DNA of 64,000 bases from the NCBI RefSeq assembly GCF_023566055.1, contig NZ_JALIQP010000004.1:248001-312000 (forward strand), given 5' to 3'. This DNA comes from Halosolutus amylolyticus (GTDB lineage Archaea > Halobacteriota > Halobacteria > Halobacteriales > Natrialbaceae). The notes under the pieces are model-generated. The model was not told the DNA's origin and did not search any database. It worked only from the letters and a program-made list of their open reading frames with translations. The position numbers and the translations under genes were made by a program. Shown here piece by piece: positions 10,391-23,260 of this stretch. The first letter of the stretch is position 1; each line of letters starts with the position of its first letter.

Positions 10391-11779
10391 TTACTCGTCG
10401 GTCGGTGATCCGTATTCGGCCGTCGACGGAGGTTCCGTCTCGGGCAGGCGTTCGAGAACGCCTTTTTTGCGGAGTAACTCGATTACAGGCACCAGTTCTC
10501 GAACGGAACGATCGTTCCGTTCGGCGATTTCGAGCATCGAGTGCGTCCCGTCGCTGTAGTTCAGTATCGACAGTTCCTGGCCGACGAACTCCGACGTGGA
10601 GTCGGCCCACTCGCCGTAACTACTGACGTCGGGATAGAGGTCGCGCTTGCCGAGCATCGGTTCCCCGTACGGATACTGATTTTCGTAATAGCCGGCGACT
10701 TCGAACGTTCGGAGGACGCGCTCGATCCGGTCCGCGCTCTCGACGAGCGGATCGATACCCATGAACGCTTTCGTATCGAGCGAGTTGTGGTAGCCCTCGT
10801 ACTCGCGATAGACCGTTCGCGCCATCTGTCCGACCGGGAGGTCGAATCCGGGCGAACAGTACTGGCGCTCGTCGGATCCCGACGACGGATCGAAGGGGTG
10901 TATCTCGAACGACGCGTCCCCGTATTCGTCGAGATGTTCGACAGTCGAATCGAGCAGGGCGGTTTCTCGCCGACTCTTCTTGTAGCGAAGTCTCGGCTCC
11001 GGCCCGCCTAGACAGGTCAGTACCAGTCCGCCGCGGAGTGCGTCGGTGAGATGATCGCCGTACCGCGAGAGGTAACTGATGCTCCCGATCGTTTCCGGGC
11101 AGAGGACGAACCGGTAGCTGAACCGCCGCTCGTCCCACGCGGCGAGCCGATCGTACAGGAGTGCCATGACGAGCGGCCCGCTCAGTTCGTTGTTGGCCAG
11201 CGAGGGATGGCAGAGGTACGAGCTGAGCAACACTTCCTGATCACTCTCGCCGGGGAGGACCGCGTGTCCGTAGTTCAGTTCGCCGTCGACGAATTCGCTG
11301 TCGACGTAGGCGTGATACTCGCCCTCGGGTAGCGATTCCACTGTTTCGTGAGGCAGACAGAAGCCCCAGTTCCGTTCGTAGTAGCTCGTCACGTACGGCG
11401 TCGCCTCCGGGAGGTCCGGCAGCGAGTACAGGTGCGGCCGAAGTTCGTCGAGGGAGAGTCGCCGATCGATCGGTTTCGAGTAGTTGAGCACGGCGAGATT
11501 CGTCTCGTCGAAGTCCGCGTACACCTCCCCGTCGGGGCCGACGAGTTTCGCCTCGTCGATGCGCCACTCCTGTGGAACCGTCCAGTCGAAGACCTCCGTT
11601 CCGGACGAGACGCCTTCGATCTCGAGCGGGATCCACTCAGAGAGCCGATCGAGACTCTCGCGAAGTCCCGGCCCGGTGATGCTCCGACAGATAGGGAACA
11701 GTTCGTCGAAGCGCTCCTCGAGGAACGCTTCTTCGTCGGTTATCCGGCGTTGCTCTCGGTCGGTGCTGTGTCCGGTCAT
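10391..11779 (-). CDS. DUF4910-type aminopeptidase-like zinc protein
   Basis: 462 residues related to the aminopeptidase-like DUF2172/DUF4910 proteins found in bacterial and archaeal polysaccharide clusters. Candidate metal-site motifs of the M28-like fold are visible: SYLCHPSLANNELSG, FVLCPETIGSISYL and GYHNSLDTKAF. The N-terminal region (FPICRSITG) is a family hallmark. The last ~90 residues look like a winged helix (DGTHSMLEIAERND, VIELLRKKGVLE). The true substrate is not established; in glycan loci these proteins have been thought to act on amide groups of modified sugars, which is inference here. It is divergent from a Pse-type methylase across 111 bases. Confidence 0.8.
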   Translation of the reverse strand: MTGHSTDREQRRITDEEAFLEERFDELFPICRSITGPGLRESLDRLSEWIPLEIEGVSSGTEVFDWTVPQEWRIDEAKLVGPDGEVYADFDETNLAVLNYSKPIDRRLSLDELRPHLYSLPDLPEATPYVTSYYERNWGFCLPHETVESLPEGEYHAYVDSEFVDGELNYGHAVLPGESDQEVLLSSYLCHPSLANNELSGPLVMALLYDRLAAWDERRFSYRFVLCPETIGSISYLSRYGDHLTDALRGGLVLTCLGGPEPRLRYKKSRRETALLDSTVEHLDEYGDASFEIHPFDPSSGSDERQYCSPGFDLPVGQMARTVYREYEGYHNSLDTKAFMGIDPLVESADRIERVLRTFEVAGYYENQYPYGEPMLGKRDLYPDVSSYGEWADSTSEFVGQELSILNYSDGTHSMLEIAERNDRSVRELVPVIELLRKKGVLERLPETEPPSTAEYGSPTDE

Positions 11780-11890
11780 AGATCGGTCTCGTCGGGCGGA
11801 TCGCGGTCCGAGCGTTTGTCACGCGGTTCGGGATATTTCTGGCCCCGACCTAGCACGTTATGTGCGTGTTCGGTGTCGTCGGAGTGTGGC

Positions 11891-12544
11891 ATGACTAATC
11901 GATCGAAACAGTACCGGTACTGGAACGGCGAGTTCGGTCGACGGTACTGGGAGCGCCACCCGACGACCGTCGACGGGTTCGACGACCTCCGGACCGAGCA
12001 GTGGGGGCCGGGAGAGACCCAGTCCGAAGTCATGCGCCGCTTCGTGGCGGATATCGATCGGGAAAGCGACGTCCTCGAAGTCGGCTGTGCGACGGGCATC
12101 CAGCTAGAGATCCTCTCGAGGCTCGGCTTCGAGGATCTCTTCGGCGTGGACTTCCACCGGTGGGCGCTCGAGCGCGCGCAACGTGATCGACCGGCGCTGT
12201 CTCCGATCGAGGCGACCGCAACGGCGCTCCCGTTTCGTGATGGCCAGTTCGACCTCGTGTTCACGAACGAGACGCTGATTACTGTCCCGCCAGCGAAAAT
12301 CGATCGTGTCATGGCCGAGATCGTTCGCTGTTCGAACGAGTGGATCTGGGGACTCGAGTTCCACGCCGACGAGTACACCGAGATCGAGTGGCGCGGTGAG
12401 GACGACCTGCTGTGGAAGACCGACTTCTGCGAGCGATATCTCGAGAACCACGACCTCGAACTGGTCGACGCGGAGGTCATCGAATATCGCGAGAACGACG
12501 ACCTCGACGGGGCGTTTCTCCTTCGGAAACGGGACGCCACGTAA
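11891..12544 (+). CDS. Pseudaminic acid biosynthesis-associated methylase (copy 1)
   Basis: A 217-residue class I SAM-dependent methyltransferase. YWNGEFGRRYWERHP at the N-terminus is the hallmark of the family linked to nonulosonic acid loci. The SAM loop is VLEVGCATGIQLEIL, followed by LFGVDFHRW and the later FDLVFTNETLITVPP. The C-terminus carries FHADEYTEIEWRGEDDLLWKTDFC, again family-specific. A paralogue lies at 20996-21631, so the cluster has two. The acceptor is unknown; O- or N-methylation of the nonulosonic acid or a precursor is plausible. The ATG at 11891 directly precedes the conserved motif; a long open extension upstream is antisense to the DUF4910 gene and rejected. Confidence 0.85.
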   Translation: MTNRSKQYRYWNGEFGRRYWERHPTTVDGFDDLRTEQWGPGETQSEVMRRFVADIDRESDVLEVGCATGIQLEILSRLGFEDLFGVDFHRWALERAQRDRPALSPIEATATALPFRDGQFDLVFTNETLITVPPAKIDRVMAEIVRCSNEWIWGLEFHADEYTEIEWRGEDDLLWKTDFCERYLENHDLELVDAEVIEYRENDDLDGAFLLRKRDAT

Positions 12545-12608: not shown

Positions 12609-14030
12609 TCACGTCGACGGAAACGGATGCCGATCCGATTCCAGCGTCTTGTAGTTACTGTACCTGGGATCGGTGTAATCGGAGAACCGGCTTTCCTCGA
12701 GCGCTTCCTTGATCTCCCGACAGCCGTCCGGAATCGTTCGCTCGACGTCGTAGTCGAGGGTCGATTCGATCTTCGAGAAGTCGACGCGATAGCTCCGTTC
12801 GTCTTCGTTTTCCGGATGCCACTCGATCGACGCCTCGGGAAAACACTCGGCGATCATCTCACCGACCTCGGCGATACGGTAGTTTTGTTCGGTCGAACCG
12901 ACATTGAACACCTCGCTCGAGACATCGTTGATCGGCGCCTCGAGACAGTCGATGAACGCTCCTGCGGCGTCGGCGACGTGGACGTTGGGGCGGAACTGGT
13001 TGCCCCCGAAGACGGGAACGTCGCCCGTTTCGTGGGCTTTCGCCGTGAGAATGTTGACGACGAGGTCGAACCGCATTCGCGGTGACAGGCCGTAGATCGT
13101 CGCCATCCTGAGTATCGTCGGCGAGAAGTTCGCATCCGCCATCTCGAGTAGGGCCTGTTCGGACTCGATCTTCGTCTTCGCGTACAGCGAGACGGGATTC
13201 AGCGCGGACGCTTCCGTCAGCAGGTCGTCGTTCTCGTCCCGCCCGTAGACGCTGCAGGTCGACGCGAAGATGAACCGATTCACCTGGTGGTACTTGCAGA
13301 TACTCGCCGCCAGCGTGACGGCGTGATAGTTCATCTCGAGCGTCTTCTGCGAATCGATGCTCGATGCGGGGTCGCCGACCAGTGCACCCAGGTGGACGAC
13401 GGCATCGGCACCGCGAATCCCCTCGACGACCGTGTCGATCGTCCGCATGTCACCTTCGATGAGCGTGAACCGATCGTGGTCGAGGAGGGCTTCGATTCCG
13501 TGTCGTCCGTAGAGCAACGAGTCGAGGACGCGTACTTCGTAGCCCGCCTCGAGTAACCGGCGGGAGAGCACGGATCCGATGTAGCCTGCGCCACCGATCA
13601 CCAGAACGGTCTGGACGTTTCTGGTGGGGTCTGCCGCAGTTCGGTTGGTGAGTACGCGTCCCTCCCTGTTCACGTACTCCAGTTCGACGATCCGATCGTT
13701 CTCGTCGAGTACCGGAATCATCAACACCTCGTGAACGGACGTTCGCCGCTGAACGTCTTCTGCGGAGAGTTGATCGGAGAGCGCTTCCGCTCCGTCGCTC
13801 GTCCTGAGCACGAGCGGATCCTCGTTGATTACTTCGCGGACCGGTGCGTCGATGTCGATTCCGTCGAGGATACCGCGCCGAATGTCGCCGTCAGTGGCGA
13901 TTCCCCGGAACCGCCCGTCGTCGTCGACGACGGCGACGAGTCCCGCCCCGCTCTTGTCGATCGTCTGCATCGTTTCGGTCAACGCGGTCGCTGCCGAGAC
14001 GATGATTTCGTCTGTATTTTCGACTGTCAT
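12609..14030 (-). CDS. CBS-pair fused to NAD-dependent sugar epimerase/dehydratase
   Basis: 473 residues with two parts. Residues 1-125 are a pair of CBS motifs (VAVVDDDGRFRGIATDGDIRR and IPVLDENDRIVELEYV), very like the N-terminal module of PtmE-type sugar-1-P nucleotidyltransferases. From residue 141 a complete extended SDR follows: Rossmann GGAGYIGS (146-153), catalytic STCSVYG (257-263) and YAKTK (Tyr283, Lys287). The likely reaction is NAD-dependent dehydration or epimerisation of a UDP- or GDP-amino sugar, possibly the first committed step of the nonulosonic acid pathway, since no PseB/LegB gene is present otherwise. The CBS pair could bind an adenine nucleotide and regulate it (inference). 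A 20-bp duplication spans its start and creates a seven-codon leader frame. Confidence 0.88.
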   Translation of the reverse strand: MTVENTDEIIVSAATALTETMQTIDKSGAGLVAVVDDDGRFRGIATDGDIRRGILDGIDIDAPVREVINEDPLVLRTSDGAEALSDQLSAEDVQRRTSVHEVLMIPVLDENDRIVELEYVNREGRVLTNRTAADPTRNVQTVLVIGGAGYIGSVLSRRLLEAGYEVRVLDSLLYGRHGIEALLDHDRFTLIEGDMRTIDTVVEGIRGADAVVHLGALVGDPASSIDSQKTLEMNYHAVTLAASICKYHQVNRFIFASTCSVYGRDENDDLLTEASALNPVSLYAKTKIESEQALLEMADANFSPTILRMATIYGLSPRMRFDLVVNILTAKAHETGDVPVFGGNQFRPNVHVADAAGAFIDCLEAPINDVSSEVFNVGSTEQNYRIAEVGEMIAECFPEASIEWHPENEDERSYRVDFSKIESTLDYDVERTIPDGCREIKEALEESRFSDYTDPRYSNYKTLESDRHPFPST

Positions 14031-14061: not shown

Positions 14062-14217
14062 TAACGCAACGCGCCTGGGCGTGCGTCGCTGGGCCATCTA
14101 CCGCCTGAAGCGGAAATCGTTATTTGGAGGGTACAGAACGGGGCGCGATCGAGCCGTAGCGGTAAAACTCGGTGGAGATTCGAACCGGTCGCCTCGTTCC
14201 GTAGCCGTCGATTCAGT

Positions 14218-15360
14218 TCAGGGTTGACTGTCGACGGCCTCCCGGACGCCCGCTACGATTCTCTCCGTTTCATCGACCGAAAGGTTCGGATGAATCGGCA
14301 ACGAGAGAACCCGCGAGGCCACGTCCTCGGTAACGGGTAACTGACCTCGATCGGTCCCGTCGCCGTCTCGATAGTGGTCGAGCAGGTGTACCGGCGGGTC
14401 CCAGTAGATCTTGGACGAGATATCGCGCTCGTCGAGAGCAGTGACGACGGTCGATCGATCCACGTCGTCTCCGAGCGTGACCGTGTACAACTGGTAGACG
14501 TGCCGCCCCCGATCCGTCCCCCGGTGCGGGGTCACCCGGGAGAGAGACTCGAACGCGTCCGTCATCCGTCTCGCCGCGCGCCGCCGGCCGTCGATCAACT
14601 CCTCGACCTTCTCGATCTGGGCACATCCGATCGCCGCCACGACGTCCGGCATCCGGTAGTTGGTCCCGACAGCCCCGTAGGTCCCGCTGTCCGCCGATTC
14701 GAAGTAGTCTCCGGAGAGACGGCCGTGCGAACGGTACTGCCGGACGTTTTCCGCGAGCGTCTCGTCGTTGGTGAGCACGGCGCCGCCCTCGCCGGTCGCG
14801 ACGACCTTGTTCTGGCAGAAACTGAGCGCCGTCGAGTCGCCGAAGGTTCCGACGGCCCGCCCGTCCAGGTCGGCCCCGAGGGCTTCCGCCGCGTCCTCGA
14901 TCACCGCCACGTCGAACTCGTCGCCGATCGCGACGAGTTCGTCGATCCGACACGCGCTTCCGTAGGGATGGACCGGGACGATGGCCGCGGTTCGATCGGT
15001 GATCGCCTCCCGAACCGAGGCGGGATCCAGTCCGTACGTGTCGCGCTCGATATCCGCGAACGCCGCCGTCGCGCCGACGAGGTCGACCGCGTTCGCGGTC
15101 GCGACGAACGTGAACCCGGGGACGATCACCTCGTCACCCGGACCGATCCCGTGCGCACGGAGGGCCGCGACGAGCGCCGTCGTCCCCGAATTGACGACTA
15201 CCGCGTGCGCCGCCCCAGTATAGTCGACGAGTTTTTCCTCGAACAGCGAGACGTACGGTCCTTTCGCCCAGTGGCTGCCGCGGGTGATCGAATCGGTCGC
15301 GTACTCGACGTCCGTCTCGTCCCACGCGATTTCGAACAACGGGATTCGATCGTCACTCAT
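14218..15360 (-). CDS. DegT/DnrJ/EryC1 sugar aminotransferase, PseC-like
   Basis: A 380-residue PLP-dependent aminotransferase acting on a nucleotide-linked keto sugar. It carries PYVSLFEEKL near the N-terminus, NSGTTALVAAL (phosphate-binding loop), GDEVIVPGFTFVATAN, EDAAEALGA (cofactor-binding Asp) and the catalytic Lys185 within FCQNKVVATGEGG. HPNLSVDETERI closes the protein as in PseC/ArnB relatives. In this locus it would install the C4 amino group on the intermediate made by the SDR (inference). It is divergent from the PseG-like gene, sharing 15361-15546. The start at 15360 gives the expected length and N-terminal IPLFEI motif. Confidence 0.9.
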   Translation of the reverse strand: MSDDRIPLFEIAWDETDVEYATDSITRGSHWAKGPYVSLFEEKLVDYTGAAHAVVVNSGTTALVAALRAHGIGPGDEVIVPGFTFVATANAVDLVGATAAFADIERDTYGLDPASVREAITDRTAAIVPVHPYGSACRIDELVAIGDEFDVAVIEDAAEALGADLDGRAVGTFGDSTALSFCQNKVVATGEGGAVLTNDETLAENVRQYRSHGRLSGDYFESADSGTYGAVGTNYRMPDVVAAIGCAQIEKVEELIDGRRRAARRMTDAFESLSRVTPHRGTDRGRHVYQLYTVTLGDDVDRSTVVTALDERDISSKIYWDPPVHLLDHYRDGDGTDRGQLPVTEDVASRVLSLPIHPNLSVDETERIVAGVREAVDSQP

Positions 15361-15546: not shown

Positions 15547-16539
15547 ATGCACATCGGGATCCGTGCCGACGGGGGACCGACACGCGGATTCGGTCATCTC
15601 GTCAGGACGCGAACGCTCGCTCGAGAACTCGTCGATCGCGGGCACGAGGCGACCTACCTGACGCGAACGCCCGAACACGTGAGACGCGTCTGTCCTGACG
15701 GCATCGAGATCGCCTCGCTCCCGGCCGACACTGCCGCCGCAGTCGTCGAGACGGCACGCGACCGCGGCATCGATGCGCTGACGGTGGATCAGGGACGGGT
15801 CCCGCTTCCCGACCAGCGAACGCTTTCCCGCGAGTTCCCGCTCGCGCTCGTCCTCGACGACACCGGCGGGACGGTTCGGTGTGACCTCGTCGTGAACGGC
15901 CACATCTACGCGAGCGAAACCGACTACGCCTGGGAGGGGTCGGAGCCGGACTGGTGCGTCGGCGGCGAGTACTTTATGTTGAGCCCCGAACTTCGAAGGT
16001 ACGCCCGGCGAGAGCCGACCTGGCGTGCGCCGCCCCGGCAAGCGCTGATCACGATGGGCGGAAGCGACGTCGCGGGAACGACACCCTCGGCCGTTCGAGC
16101 CTTCGACGGGACCGAGCTCAGCGTCGACGTAATCGTCGGCCCAGGCTTTCAAAACCGGGCGGCCATCGACGAGGCTGTGGCAGAAACGGACGCATCGTTC
16201 GACGTGGTTGAAAACCCGTCGGATCTCGCGGAACGAATGTTCCGTGCCGATCTCGCGGTGACCGCACTCGGCCTGACCACGTACGAACTCCTCGCGCTGA
16301 AGACGCCGTTCGTCGGATTCCCGCAGGCACCGGACCAACGGCCGAAAGTGCGCGCGCTGCGCGATCGAAACGCAGCACTCGTACTCGACGAGGACGCCAG
16401 CGGGACCGAACTCGCGTCTGCCGTAGCGACGTTGGTTCAGGACCGCACGCTCCGTCGATCGTTCTTCGACAGGGGACGTCAGATCATCGGCGTCGACGGT
16501 ACCAGTGCCGTCGCCGATGGCGTGGAGTCGCTCGAGTGA
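15547..16539 (+). CDS. pseG: PseG-like UDP-sugar hydrolase
   Basis: 330 residues related to UDP-2,4-diacetamido-2,4,6-trideoxy-altropyranose hydrolase, which removes UDP so that the free sugar can be condensed with PEP. The family signature RADGGPTRGFGHLVR places the catalytic His17 in the GxGH motif. The second Rossmann half shows ALITMGGSDVAGTT and TALGLTTYELLALKTPFVGF, the UDP-binding end of a GT-B fold. PseG rather than a hydrolysing LegG epimerase points to a pseudaminic-type product. The long in-frame extension upstream is antisense to the aminotransferase and not coding. Confidence 0.88.
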   Translation: MHIGIRADGGPTRGFGHLVRTRTLARELVDRGHEATYLTRTPEHVRRVCPDGIEIASLPADTAAAVVETARDRGIDALTVDQGRVPLPDQRTLSREFPLALVLDDTGGTVRCDLVVNGHIYASETDYAWEGSEPDWCVGGEYFMLSPELRRYARREPTWRAPPRQALITMGGSDVAGTTPSAVRAFDGTELSVDVIVGPGFQNRAAIDEAVAETDASFDVVENPSDLAERMFRADLAVTALGLTTYELLALKTPFVGFPQAPDQRPKVRALRDRNAALVLDEDASGTELASAVATLVQDRTLRRSFFDRGRQIIGVDGTSAVADGVESLE

Positions 16540-18820: not shown

Positions 18821-19864
18821 TTACGATTCTCGGAAGTCGTCGAGCGATATTCCCTGATCCTTCTCGATATCGGTACACGCGACAGATCCTACGACGTCGT
18901 CGACATGTTTCGGTTCGAGGCCCCGCTCACGGTGGCCCGATCGGAGAATCGAGATATCCTCGGACGTAATCCACGATCCTTCGGAGATGTCGCGGGCCGC
19001 GTGGATCGTTCGACGCGCGGACTCGTACCAGTCCTCTTCGACCGACTGGACGGTCACCACCCCGGTTCCGAGCGCCGTCTCCGTATCCTGGATCGCGTCG
19101 ATCATCGCGGTCAGCTCGTCCGGTTCGAGCGCGTACGAGTGGTCCAGACCCTCCTGGGAGCTATCGAGCGTGAAGTGCTTTTCGACGACGTCCGCACCGA
19201 GTGCGACTGCCGCCGTCGGTGCTGTCGTCGGATCGAGCGTGTGGTCGGAGAGCCCGACCGGGACGTCGAACTCCTCGGCGAGGCGCCGGACGGCACGAAC
19301 GTTGGCCGATTCGAGCGGTGTCGGATACGAGGACACGCAGTGCAGGAGGACCAGGTCGGACACGCCGCTCCGTTCCATCGTCTCGACCGCCTCGCGGACG
19401 TCCGCGAGGTCGTGCGCCCCGGTCGAGGCGACGATCGGTTTGTCACGTTCCGCCAGCGTCTCGAGAAACGGGTGGTGGCTCAGGACCGACGACGCGACTT
19501 TGTACGCCGGAACGTACGGTTCGAGTTCGTCGACCGATCGTTCGTCGAACGGTGACGACAGAAAATCGACGTTCCGATCCCGACATCGGTCGTGGAGTTC
19601 CGGAATCCATTCGTACGGCATCTCCGCGTCCGCGACGATGTCGTACAGCGCTCGTTCCCCCTTGGGTGTCTCGACAGTTCCGCTGTTCTCGACGTACATC
19701 GACTCGGCACGAAACGTCTGAAACTTGACCGCGTCGGCACCGGCGTCCGCCGCTGCGTCAACCAGTTCCATCGCCGTTTCGAGATCGCCGTTGTGGTTCG
19801 AACCCGCTTCTGCGATGACGTACGTCGGCTCGTCACTGCCGACCGAAAATTCGGCGTTCATCAT
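18821..19864 (-). CDS. NeuB/PseI-like nonulosonic acid synthase
   Basis: 347 residues: condenses a six-carbon amino sugar with phosphoenolpyruvate to form a nine-carbon acid. The TIM barrel shows IAEAGSNHNG (18-26), KFQTF, FLSSPFD, STGA, VGLSDHT and EKHFTLD with His230, then GLDH. The C-terminal SAF (antifreeze-like) domain spans about 284-344 (RRTIHAARDISEGSWITSEDI). It could be NeuB, LegI or PseI; presence of the PseG-like gene favours PseI. The ATG overlaps the stop of the asparagine-synthase-like remnant (ATGA), so both were once one operon. The double Met (MMN) leaves the first residue ambiguous. Confidence 0.93.
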   Translation of the reverse strand: MMNAEFSVGSDEPTYVIAEAGSNHNGDLETAMELVDAAADAGADAVKFQTFRAESMYVENSGTVETPKGERALYDIVADAEMPYEWIPELHDRCRDRNVDFLSSPFDERSVDELEPYVPAYKVASSVLSHHPFLETLAERDKPIVASTGAHDLADVREAVETMERSGVSDLVLLHCVSSYPTPLESANVRAVRRLAEEFDVPVGLSDHTLDPTTAPTAAVALGADVVEKHFTLDSSQEGLDHSYALEPDELTAMIDAIQDTETALGTGVVTVQSVEEDWYESARRTIHAARDISEGSWITSEDISILRSGHRERGLEPKHVDDVVGSVACTDIEKDQGISLDDFRES

Positions 19865-20613
19865 ACCTTGCTGCTCCCACGAACCACAGGAAAGAGTTTG
19901 TCCCCAGCGACGACCGGTATTCTGCGAGACGAAAGCGTTCCAGTAGGCAAAACGGGGCCGACGGTGGACGACGTCACAGGCGAGTCGACGGACTCGGGTG
20001 AGAGTGTCGACGCCAGGGCACAGTACAGGGCCGTGCTATCGACTCCACCTGAATACATGACTGCGACGTTCCGATCCGCGAGCGACTCCGCGGCGGTCTC
20101 GGTCGCGTCACCGAAACTGTTCGGCCGCGATCGATCGGGTCCCAGATATTCCTCCAACCCGTCGATTTCCCCATCTCTAATTTCGAGGTAGCTGGCCGGT
20201 GGTAGCCGTCGGACGTCGTCGAAAATCCCTGACAGTGGGAGCGTAATGAGCAGTTCGTGCTCGTAAATGTGCCGAACGGCACCGTCGTCGATCGAGACGG
20301 TTCGTGGGGAGCGGCCGTCATCGCATCGACGAACGTCGTCGCGACGACGGCTGACTCCCCGCCGAGGGTGATGTACCCGCCCGTGTAGCCGGGAGCGGTG
20401 ATCACTCGGATCCGGTCGTGACGGCTATCGACGAGACAGTAGTTTCCGCAGTCGTACCGGGCTTCGCCGCCCAGAAACTCTTCGAACGGCAGTCGCCGAC
20501 ATCGCCCGATCAACTCGTCCGGTTCGCAGTGGAGGGGAGTCCGGAATATCCCCACGGTATCGCTCGAGCGGTCCCTCGATACGATCTGTAGATCTTCAAC
20601 CTGTTTGACTATG
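19861..20613 (-). pseudogene. Frameshifted, truncated asparagine-synthase-like gene
   Basis: Two frames together spell the start of an asparagine-synthase-related protein. Frame A (20613 to about 20300) gives PFEEFLGGEARYDCGNYCL and an APGYTGG region, typical of the N-terminal domain. Near 20295 (CCCCACGAACC) the reading must shift by one base to continue as TVSIDDGAVRHIYEH and LPPASYLEIRDGEIDG. Frame B ends soon after the ATP loop VAVMYSGGVDSTALYCAL, leaving only a short tail and no synthetase domain. The remnant's stop still overlaps the neuB start by four bases. The original activity, perhaps amidation of a sugar acid, is inference. Confidence 0.75.
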
Positions 20614-20995
20614 ACACCCCTCGTATACCGAGCAGCAGTACGAAACCGAGTTCGATAATACCATTATTTCTCGTATACCGGTGGATACGGTCGAGGCGTA
20701 TGTGCCAGTGTCGGCGCGTCGCGAGAGCGGTTCTACCCGGACATCGGACGTCTGTTCCGGCAGACGCCGGCGATCGCGACCGCCCTTCCGGTAACTGGCA
20801 CGGCGTCTCGGCAAGAGCGATCAGCCATTGACCGTATCGATTCTCTGTCGACCCTATCTCTCAGCTCGTCGTTGCAGTCCTGCCGGGGATGGAACGCCGA
20901 GATCGATGGTCTTTGCGAGTGAAGGTTTTATGTATGTGTTGCTGGTACGTCGCTCGGACCGAATTCGAACGACCTTCTATACGATAGCCTCTGAT

Positions 20996-21631
20996 ATGAC
21001 AAGCGAAAATTCCCGAAAGTGGGCCGGCGAAGCGGGGCTAAAGTACACGGATCGAAATCCACACACCGTCGACGGTCTCGAAGAATTGCGCGAAGAACAG
21101 TACGGTGTCACTCAAACGGAACTGTACGAGGAGATCCTCGACGACGTCGACCGTGACAACAAGATACTGGAAGTCGGGTCAAACGTCGGGGTTCAGCTCC
21201 GGTGCCTTCGGAACCTCGGATTCGAGAACCTGTACGGGCTCGACATTCAATCGCTCGCCATCGAGAAGTCGCGGGAGTACGCGCCGTCGATTCCCGCCGT
21301 CGTTGGCGACGCGAGCCGGCTTCCCTTCAAAGACGAGACGTTCGATCTCGTTTTTACAAACGGCTGTCTCGTTACGATACCACCCGAGTTGATCGATACC
21401 GTTCAGGCAGAGATTACCCGCTGTTCGAAACGATACGTGTTTGGACAGGAGTTTCACGCGGACGAGTACGTCGCTATCGAGAGCGATCACGACGACCAAC
21501 TGTACTGGAAGACCGATTTTTGTGATCGATATCTCGAAAATAACGATCTGGAACTGATCGAGTCGTCGTTCCTTTCGTATGTAGAAACGGACAACGTCGA
21601 TCGGATGTTTCTTCTCGAGAAATCCGGATGA
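20996..21631 (+). CDS. Pseudaminic acid biosynthesis-associated methylase (copy 2)
   Basis: A 211-residue SAM-dependent methyltransferase paralogous to the one at 11891. KWAGEAGLKYTDRNPHTVDG matches the family N-terminus, ILEVGSNVGVQL is the SAM loop, and FDLVFTNGCLVTIPP plus FHADEYVAIESDHDDQLYWKTDFC are shared. Identity to copy 1 looks moderate, so this is not a fresh duplicate and the two may modify different positions. The ATG at 20996 precedes the conserved motif by the family distance. TTTTATGTATG near 20925 may belong to its promoter. Confidence 0.85.
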   Translation: MTSENSRKWAGEAGLKYTDRNPHTVDGLEELREEQYGVTQTELYEEILDDVDRDNKILEVGSNVGVQLRCLRNLGFENLYGLDIQSLAIEKSREYAPSIPAVVGDASRLPFKDETFDLVFTNGCLVTIPPELIDTVQAEITRCSKRYVFGQEFHADEYVAIESDHDDQLYWKTDFCDRYLENNDLELIESSFLSYVETDNVDRMFLLEKSG

Positions 21632-21903
21632 TCCGAGGAGAGCAATCACGGAATCGCCATGGTTCGAACGTTCGGAGAGGAATGAATAGTTCGTCTCCGG
21701 CAGTTCATACGCCGACGGTTACTGGGCCGTAACACTCCGTTATGCGCCGTGCTATGCGTCTCCAAGACCGTGAAATGCGTTCCCACTCGTTCGACGGCTC
21801 CGACGTGCTCACGGGTTCAGCAGGTGTGAGTAGTGGGTGAACTCTAGTTGAAACAATGAACAAAGTCACATACGATGTCAGTGAAATCGCTCCCAGTTCA
21901 GGG

Positions 21904-22542
21904 ATGAAAGTCATTTACTGTGCGGGCGAGCAAGCCCGTGTCGTTCTCGACATTCTCGACCGATCCGGGAACGAAGAGGAGGTTGTGTTGGTCGACGACG
22001 ACGCCGATCGCCACGGAAATCACTTTCACGGAAGCGAAATCATCGGTGGAACGAACGCGCTGGAGCGACTCGATCCGGAGCGTACTCGAGGTCACGTAGC
22101 GCTCGGAGGTAATCCTCGAGTGCGACTCGACCTCCTCTCACAGCTACGGGAGCGTGGGTTCGATCCGTTCTCGGCCATCGATACGGACATCACGGTCGCA
22201 TCCACAGCACAACTGGGCAAGGGAATCACGATCAACGCCCGATCGTACGTCGGTCCCGACGCGCGTATCGAAGACGGCGCGTTGATCGACAGCGCGGTCA
22301 ACGTCTCACACGACGTTCACCTCGAGGCCGGAGCGACGGTAACGCCGAACGCGACGCTTGCGGGCGCGGTTCGCGTCGAGAAAGGGGCTTATATCGGGGC
22401 CGGGGCGACCGTCCTGGATCACGTCACGATCGGCGAGGACGCGGTCGTGGGGGCGGGAGCCGTCGTCACCGAAGACGTCCCGGCCGACGAGACGGTCGTC
22501 GGCGTCCCGGCGGAACCGATCGGTGGTGAAACCGATGGGTGA
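21904..22542 (+). CDS. NeuD/PglD-like sugar O/N-acyltransferase
   Basis: 212 residues. The N-terminal part is a PglD-like nucleotide-sugar-binding fold (MKVIYCAGEQARVVLDIL), and the C-terminal half is a left-handed beta-helix of hexapeptide repeats (INARSYVGPDARIEDGALI, VEKGAYIGAGATVLDHVTIGEDAVVGAGAVV). The catalytic His lies in NVSHDVH. Homologues acetylate the C4 amino group in bacillosamine or legionaminic pathways, or O-acetylate sialic acid. Because no PseH is seen, this enzyme may supply the N-acetylation here (inference). I start at MKVIYC; an in-frame ATG at 21856 would add 16 residues. It overlaps the next gene by eight bases. Confidence 0.85.
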   Translation: MKVIYCAGEQARVVLDILDRSGNEEEVVLVDDDADRHGNHFHGSEIIGGTNALERLDPERTRGHVALGGNPRVRLDLLSQLRERGFDPFSAIDTDITVASTAQLGKGITINARSYVGPDARIEDGALIDSAVNVSHDVHLEAGATVTPNATLAGAVRVEKGAYIGAGATVLDHVTIGEDAVVGAGAVVTEDVPADETVVGVPAEPIGGETDG

Positions 22543-23260
22543 GGGCGTTCTCGGGGTGATCCCCGCGCGCGGCGGTTCGAAACGGGTGCCGCGAAAGAAC
22601 GTCCGCGAGATCGGGGGCATCCCGCTCGTTGGACACGCGGTCGAACAGGCGACCGAAGCAGCGTTGCTCGAGGAAGTCGTCGTCTCGACGGACGACGAAG
22701 AAATTGCCGCAGCGGCCCGCAAACACGGCGGACGGGTGCCGTTTCCCCGTCCGGAGCGGCTCGCTACCGACGGCGCCACGAGCGCCGCCGTCCTCGACCA
22801 CGCGCTGGAGTGGCACGCCGATCGCGGAGACGAATTCGACGCCGTCGCGATGATACAGCCGACGACGCCCTTGCGGCGGGCCTCGGATATAGACGAAACG
22901 ATCGATCGGTGGCGATCGACCGACGCGACCGCCGGGATCAGCGTGTCCGAATATCGGGCCCCGCCACAGTGGGCGGTAACCATGGACGAGACGGGGACCC
23001 TTCGACCGTACTTCGAGGAAGACGCACTCTGGACCGACGACGACGTCCCGCGAAGCCAGGATCTGTCCCGTCTCTTGCACCCGAACGGGGCCGTGTTCGT
23101 CGCAGACGTGCCCGCGTTTCGAGCGTTCGACGGGTTCTATACGGATCGGACGGTCGGGTACGAGATGCCCATCTCCCGATCGATCGACGTCGACTCTCCG
23201 GCGGACCTGGAACTCGCTCGAACGCTGTACGCCACCCACGATGACCCCAACGAAGAGTGA
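22535..23260 (+). CDS. CMP-nonulosonic acid cytidylyltransferase (PseF/NeuA-like)
   Basis: 241 residues that activate the finished nonulosonic acid with CTP. GVIPARGGSKRVPRKN is the CTP-binding signature of the NeuA/PseF family; VVVSTDDEEIA, MIQPTTPLRRASDI and the closing IDVDSPADLELA are also diagnostic. The gene overlaps the NeuD-like stop by eight bases, so the two are coupled. Whether the sugar is pseudaminic, legionaminic or neuraminic acid cannot be read from this protein alone. Confidence 0.92.
   Translation: MGEGVLGVIPARGGSKRVPRKNVREIGGIPLVGHAVEQATEAALLEEVVVSTDDEEIAAAARKHGGRVPFPRPERLATDGATSAAVLDHALEWHADRGDEFDAVAMIQPTTPLRRASDIDETIDRWRSTDATAGISVSEYRAPPQWAVTMDETGTLRPYFEEDALWTDDDVPRSQDLSRLLHPNGAVFVADVPAFRAFDGFYTDRTVGYEMPISRSIDVDSPADLELARTLYATHDDPNEE

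Follow-up and report, generated by a model that had tools for sequence, protein, structure and literature searches.

To our knowledge, the control of nonulosonate (sialic-acid-like sugar) synthesis in prokaryotes is poorly understood, and we know of no explanation for the CBS module carried by one of the enzymes concerned, the PtmE-type GlcN-1-P guanylyltransferase of legionaminate clusters. The gene studied here lies in a 64,000-nucleotide stretch of the genome of the haloarchaeon Halosolutus amylolyticus (hereafter the window) and joins a CBS pair to a short-chain dehydrogenase/reductase (SDR) domain. PtmE-type enzymes share with it an N-terminal CBS module of the same kind, the motif TDGD[VI]RRG[LI]L and a place in NeuB-bearing clusters, but their C-terminus is an NTP transferase, whereas that of the fusion is an SDR (PF01370) in which no NTP_transferase domain was found. 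Among SDRs, Cj1427, a GDP-heptose C4-dehydrogenase (PDB 6vo6 and 6vo8), is the nearest in both sequence and fold, and it shares the motif SPRMR[FL]DL.VN with the fusion protein; however, the two are 30–33% identical, and Cj1427 has no CBS module and comes from a capsular heptose cluster. The NDP-GlcNAc 4,6-dehydratases LegB and PseB fill the same pathway slot, i.e., the step before a PLP aminotransferase. The second-closest CBS module is that of KdsD/KpsF arabinose-5-phosphate isomerases, which also have the TDGDIRR motif and belong to a CMP-keto-sugar pathway, but there the CBS pair is C-terminal and sits on a SIS isomerase. Lastly, in two methanogens a gene beside NeuB and NeuA encodes the same CBS module, but with a cupin as its partner.

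Considering these comparisons, we propose with moderate confidence that the SDR domain is a Cj1427-like sugar-nucleotide C4-oxidoreductase that feeds a DegT aminotransferase in place of LegB/PseB, and that a regulatory CBS pair of the PtmE kind sets the flux through it. This reading draws on the fusion itself, the ancestry of its module, the gene pairing, the association of intact CBS pairs with NeuB and the gene content of the cluster; from these we infer the reactions, with UDP-GlcNAc as the probable substrate, and also an allosteric role for the CBS pair and its ligand.

A CBS pair and an SDR domain in one reading frame

The fusion gene (12609..14030, minus strand, as are all its parts given below) encodes 473 amino acids from an ATG start and translates without a stop. 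A longer open reading frame differs only by a TTG start at 14069, and the nearest homologue, when aligned, begins at the same place as the ATG at 14030. CBS1 (residues 5–55; 13866..14018) matches Pfam PF00571 (E 1.4e-5, 25.8 bits, cut-off 24) and contains a TDGD motif (T46-D47-G48-D49; 13884..13895), which supplies D49 of the T-x-x-D motif. CBS2 (about residues 71–121; 13668..13820) is not itself matched by Pfam and was placed from the fold of the modelled N-terminus. When the N-terminal 137 residues were modelled alone, a CBS-pair fold was obtained (pLDDT 76), the best structural match of which had a Z of 12.5 over 110 residues at 2.7 A, and all 50 structural matches listed were CBS-bearing proteins or regions. 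The CBS2 sequence has diverged and is without the usual Asp motif, so the pair may have only one functional site. A linker (about residues 122–138; 13617..13667), with pLDDT below 50 at residues 128–137, leads to the extended SDR domain (residues 139–450; 12681..13616), which was assigned from PF01370 and from the match to Cj1427 by sequence and fold. The frame is open through the linker and GC3 is even across the CBS/SDR junction.

An earlier note on this DNA, made from the letters alone, had read the gene as such a fusion, and this holds: a CBS pair at the N-terminus shares a single frame with a Rossmann SDR that is intact. The sequencing error near 13610 that might have joined two separate genes is excluded, as independent fused frames are present in about 20 haloarchaeal genomes (at least 19 besides that of the window, about 47–69% identity). 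To say that there are no similar proteins would be too strong, since the fusion forms a small conserved family annotated solely as NAD-dependent epimerase/dehydratase. Public records name the protein NAD-dependent epimerase/dehydratase or SDR and leave the CBS part unmentioned, and the fusion is hidden because this annotation covers the SDR half alone. The remark in the earlier note that it knew of no characterised enzyme with this architecture agrees with the open-access literature, in which none was found.

Carriers belong to the Natrialbaceae, the Haloferacaceae (Halobium salinum) and other families in the same order. Outside haloarchaea, the fusion was found neither among plasmid records, nor among the matches listed in a CBS-module search of 393 genomes of the phylum, nor in 80 viral relatives of the SDR; among phage records the CBS module had no match. 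A scan across 84,980 species relied on patterns specific to the family, which distant copies would escape, and it missed the relatives in two NeuB-bearing genomes (G239 and G240). A tree built from the SDR part places every CBS-bearing member in one clade (100/99 support), which indicates that the fusion arose once; branches among the CBS-less outgroups are long and the order of these outgroups is unsure.

Ancestry and company of the CBS module

The origin of the module was examined with a profile built from the five intact modules, the models used in this work being built on 13 and 5 sequences. Three PtmE-type CBS-nucleotidyltransferases scored 60.6–64.7 bits (60–65 when rounded), four haloarchaeal KdsD proteins 37–41 bits, and 20 further CBS loci taken from the genome that holds the window at most 23.5 bits. 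The resemblance to PtmE-type modules asserted in the earlier note is thus confirmed by the score gap; by the same gap, recruitment of a generic CBS from the same genome is ruled out and KdsD comes second as a candidate for the nearest module. The PtmE genes compared are found in Leg clusters, where LegB, LegC, NeuC and NeuB accompany them (one locus is more sparsely annotated). A search of 293 genomes from the haloarchaeal order gave no PtmE-type protein among its matches with E of 1e-6 or less. Across the 393 genomes of the phylum, the best four matches to the profile were the window gene, the CBS-cupins of the two methanogens (G382 and G386) and a CBS-nucleotidyltransferase (G446), each within 6 kb of NeuB. 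Lower matches were mixed, and those inspected included KdsD as well as generic CBS proteins. The two CBS-cupin genes stand beside NeuB and NeuA (L122 and L123; G382:C1 about 1048865-1049170 and G386:C1 about 608333-608554), and their cupin is PF01050, of the mannose-6-phosphate isomerase C-terminal type.

The presence of one module on three enzymes of nonulosonate clusters, and of a relative on KdsD of the Kdo pathway, suggests that it senses something common to such pathways, and that it is a shared sensor movable between enzymes of sialic-acid-like sugar synthesis. AMP, ATP or SAM, put forward in the earlier note, are possible ligands. A CMP-activated keto-sugar product would be at least as plausible, because the module keeps company with NeuB/NeuA clusters and with KdsD. 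In the PDB, one PtmE module is best matched by 4o9k, the CBS pair of a KdsD; the ligand of 4o9k may be CMP-Kdo, which serves as a lead. Taken further, the TDGDIRR type of CBS would be portable and would sense CMP-activated keto sugars as end products (nonulosonates, or Kdo in the case of KdsD), having been attached independently to different enzymes of these pathways, namely a nucleotidyltransferase, an SDR, a cupin and the SIS isomerase, with the haloarchaeal SDR oxidising C4 only and the pathway yielding a 7-amino nonulosonate that retains its 9-OH. We regard this extended version as rather improbable.

The state of the CBS pair follows the presence of NeuB. NeuB (PF03102) occurs in all five genomes with an intact pair and in none of the ten with an eroded one. 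T-D-G-D-I-R of CBS1 is kept in every one of the five copies from NeuB-bearing genomes, which span three haloarchaeal families, while each of the seven stand-alone copies aligned has R or Q at position 49, and several stand-alone copies have a truncated CBS2 or lack it. Shuffling gave a probability of 0.0003 for this split, a value that overstates the association, as the eroded copies form a single nested clade in the SDR-part tree (100/100 support); the split may reflect one or two events. An intact module with NeuB and an eroded one without it, on a module found in three nonulosonate-cluster enzymes, offers a direct approach to what this module binds and does.

These data also bear on whether the CBS pair senses anything. 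It might be a leftover, or an oligomerisation or solubility domain, inherited through fusion from a CBS-nucleotidyltransferase; the low identity of CBS2 even within the intact group (15–51%), the free erosion of the pair in the stand-alone clade and the existence of CBS-less relatives would all fit this, and constraint is not uniformly greater in the intact group. However, a non-sensing domain sits poorly with a CBS1 motif that is invariant across three families with NeuB and lost elsewhere, and with the recurrence of the module on other enzymes of nonulosonate clusters, so we consider it doubtful and prefer a CBS pair that regulates the SDR.

In the ten genomes without NeuB, the DegT and CBS-SDR genes stand as a pair whose neighbours are not glycan genes, and there the pair must serve another purpose. 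The nonulosonate setting given in the earlier note is therefore true of the window gene, which lies inside such a cluster, but does not extend to the whole family. In Natrialbaceae loci (L038-L044, L063 and L144) the pair is found alone, often plasmid-borne and often beside a UspA-like gene.

The gene cluster and the DegT partner

Directly upstream of the fusion gene lies a PseC/LegC-like DegT aminotransferase (14218..15360, minus strand; PF01041, E 1.8e-111; TIGR03588 PseC, 278 bits, below cut-off), and a DegT gene adjoins every haloarchaeal CBS-SDR examined, at 56–74% identity to that of the window. The window cluster further comprises a PseG-like UDP-sugar hydrolase (15547..16539, plus strand; TIGR03590, E 5.3e-38, below cut-off), a NeuB/PseI nonulosonate synthase (18821..19864, minus strand; PF03102, E 1.4e-81; TIGR03569/TIGR03586), a NeuD/PglB-type sugar acetyltransferase (21856..22542, plus strand; TIGR03570, above cut-off), a NeuA/PseF-like CMP-nonulosonate synthetase (22535..23260, plus strand; TIGR03584, E 8.9e-51, below cut-off) and a DUF4910 protein (10391..11779, minus strand; PF16254, E 1.5e-82). 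Genome G171 (locus L084) keeps NeuA, two methyltransferases, DUF4910, CBS-SDR, DegT, PseG and NeuB at 60–74% identity; NeuD belongs to the window cluster, beyond the set common to the two. For G239 and G240, the distance to NeuB, NeuC and NeuA is about 20 kb at most, and in G308 NeuB is about 14 kb away.

LegB above cut-off was found in none of the five NeuB-bearing CBS-SDR genomes, while G446, the positive control, has it; nor was PseB found above cut-off in the four of these genomes that were tested for it. The idea of a LegB or PseB encoded elsewhere in these genomes was rejected accordingly. Several sub-threshold SDRs exist, and a 4,6-dehydratase of another SDR family, encoded elsewhere in the genome, is possible.

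Several further features were observed in the window. Two related class I methyltransferases (11876-12544 and 20990-21631) are kept in G171, where they flank the DUF4910 gene. The frame at 20603..20014 (minus strand) corresponds only to an N-terminal stretch (residues 31–226) of an asparagine-synthase-like protein, the G171 form of which has 592 aa (L084:13635-15413), and is probably a decayed copy. Three polysaccharide lyase 14 matches (PF21294; 16695-17402, 17872-18765 and 36524-37708) occur in one glycan cluster.

Chemistry of the SDR domain

PF01370 matches the SDR at residues 142–378 (E 1.6e-42). GGAGYIGS at residues 146–153 supplies the GxxGxxG motif, and the catalytic Tyr and Lys were placed by alignment at Y283-xxx-K287 (13170..13184), so the description of the domain as an intact SDR is borne out. 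The active-site strand reads T258-C259-S260 (13251..13259), where LegB has T-S-E and Cj1427 T-N-S, i.e., it is without the dehydratase Asp/Glu, and both C259 and S260 are invariant in thirteen aligned family members. Among PDB sequences the best match of the SDR was Cj1427 with 160 bits (E 1.4e-45), the next having 97 bits. Cj1427 was also the best fold match (Z 33.8, 297 residues, 2.4 A), by a modest gap over the next SDRs (at most 31.7). In Campylobacter jejuni, Cj1427 is a ping-pong C4-dehydrogenase whose tightly bound NADH is reoxidised by alpha-ketoglutarate (PMC10680097). No NCBIfam equivalog reached its cut-off: LegB TIGR04180 gave about 79 bits against 475, PseB TIGR03589 22 against 408, and GalE TIGR01179, the best of the profiles, 114 against 262. 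The label epimerase/dehydratase given in the earlier note needs correction, since the domain is atypical for such an enzyme in its nearest relative, its T-C-S and its constant pairing with DegT.

The missing dehydratase Glu makes a dehydratase unlikely, and together with Cj1427 as nearest relative, C259/S260 in place of the S-E of LegB and the lack of an equivalog at cut-off, it leads us to infer, as the favoured reading, an oxidation at C4 in which no water is lost. A true NDP-GlcNAc 4,6-dehydratase with an altered active site, replacing LegB/PseB and leading to an ordinary 9-deoxy nonulosonate, would suit the position of the gene beside a PseC/LegC-like aminotransferase and a PseG-like hydrolase, and PF16363 (GDP-mannose dehydratase) does match at 1e-23. 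However, C259 and S260, with no Asp/Glu at the dehydratase positions, are invariant in the family, the nearest structure is a dehydrogenase and the LegB and PseB profiles score far under cut-off, which together render this unlikely. It is very unlikely that the SDR is a C4-epimerase and that DegT takes its keto sugar from another enzyme: GalE tops the NCBIfam profiles and the UDP-GlcNAc C4-epimerase 6wjb is the second sequence match, but both sequence and fold place epimerases under Cj1427, and the pairing with DegT is invariable, stand-alone pairs included.

Under the favoured C4-oxidoreductase reading, the SDR would take the first step in place of LegB/PseB in an archaeal nonulosonate pathway by oxidising its probable substrate, UDP-GlcNAc, at C4. 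DegT would then aminate the keto sugar with glutamate, NeuD would acetylate the aminated sugar, the PseG-like hydrolase would cleave after acetylation, and NeuB would condense the product before its activation by NeuA. The CBS pair would sense a small molecule linked to the pathway, most plausibly the end product or a nucleotide, and adjust the first step. If the SDR is indeed a C4-dehydrogenase, both the pathway and its product would be unlike the known legionaminate and pseudaminate routes.

CBS-less relatives of the SDR occur in other settings. DUF4910 genes are also found near a CBS-less SDR in proteobacterial exopolysaccharide loci (L064:9108-10427 and L065:9075-10394), which also have a C3-type aminotransferase and a methyltransferase. 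A Klebsiella variicola plasmid (L061:7992-10161) carries a CBS-less SDR of the same family, its frame interrupted by a stop, next to a DegT aminotransferase and a NUDIX gene.
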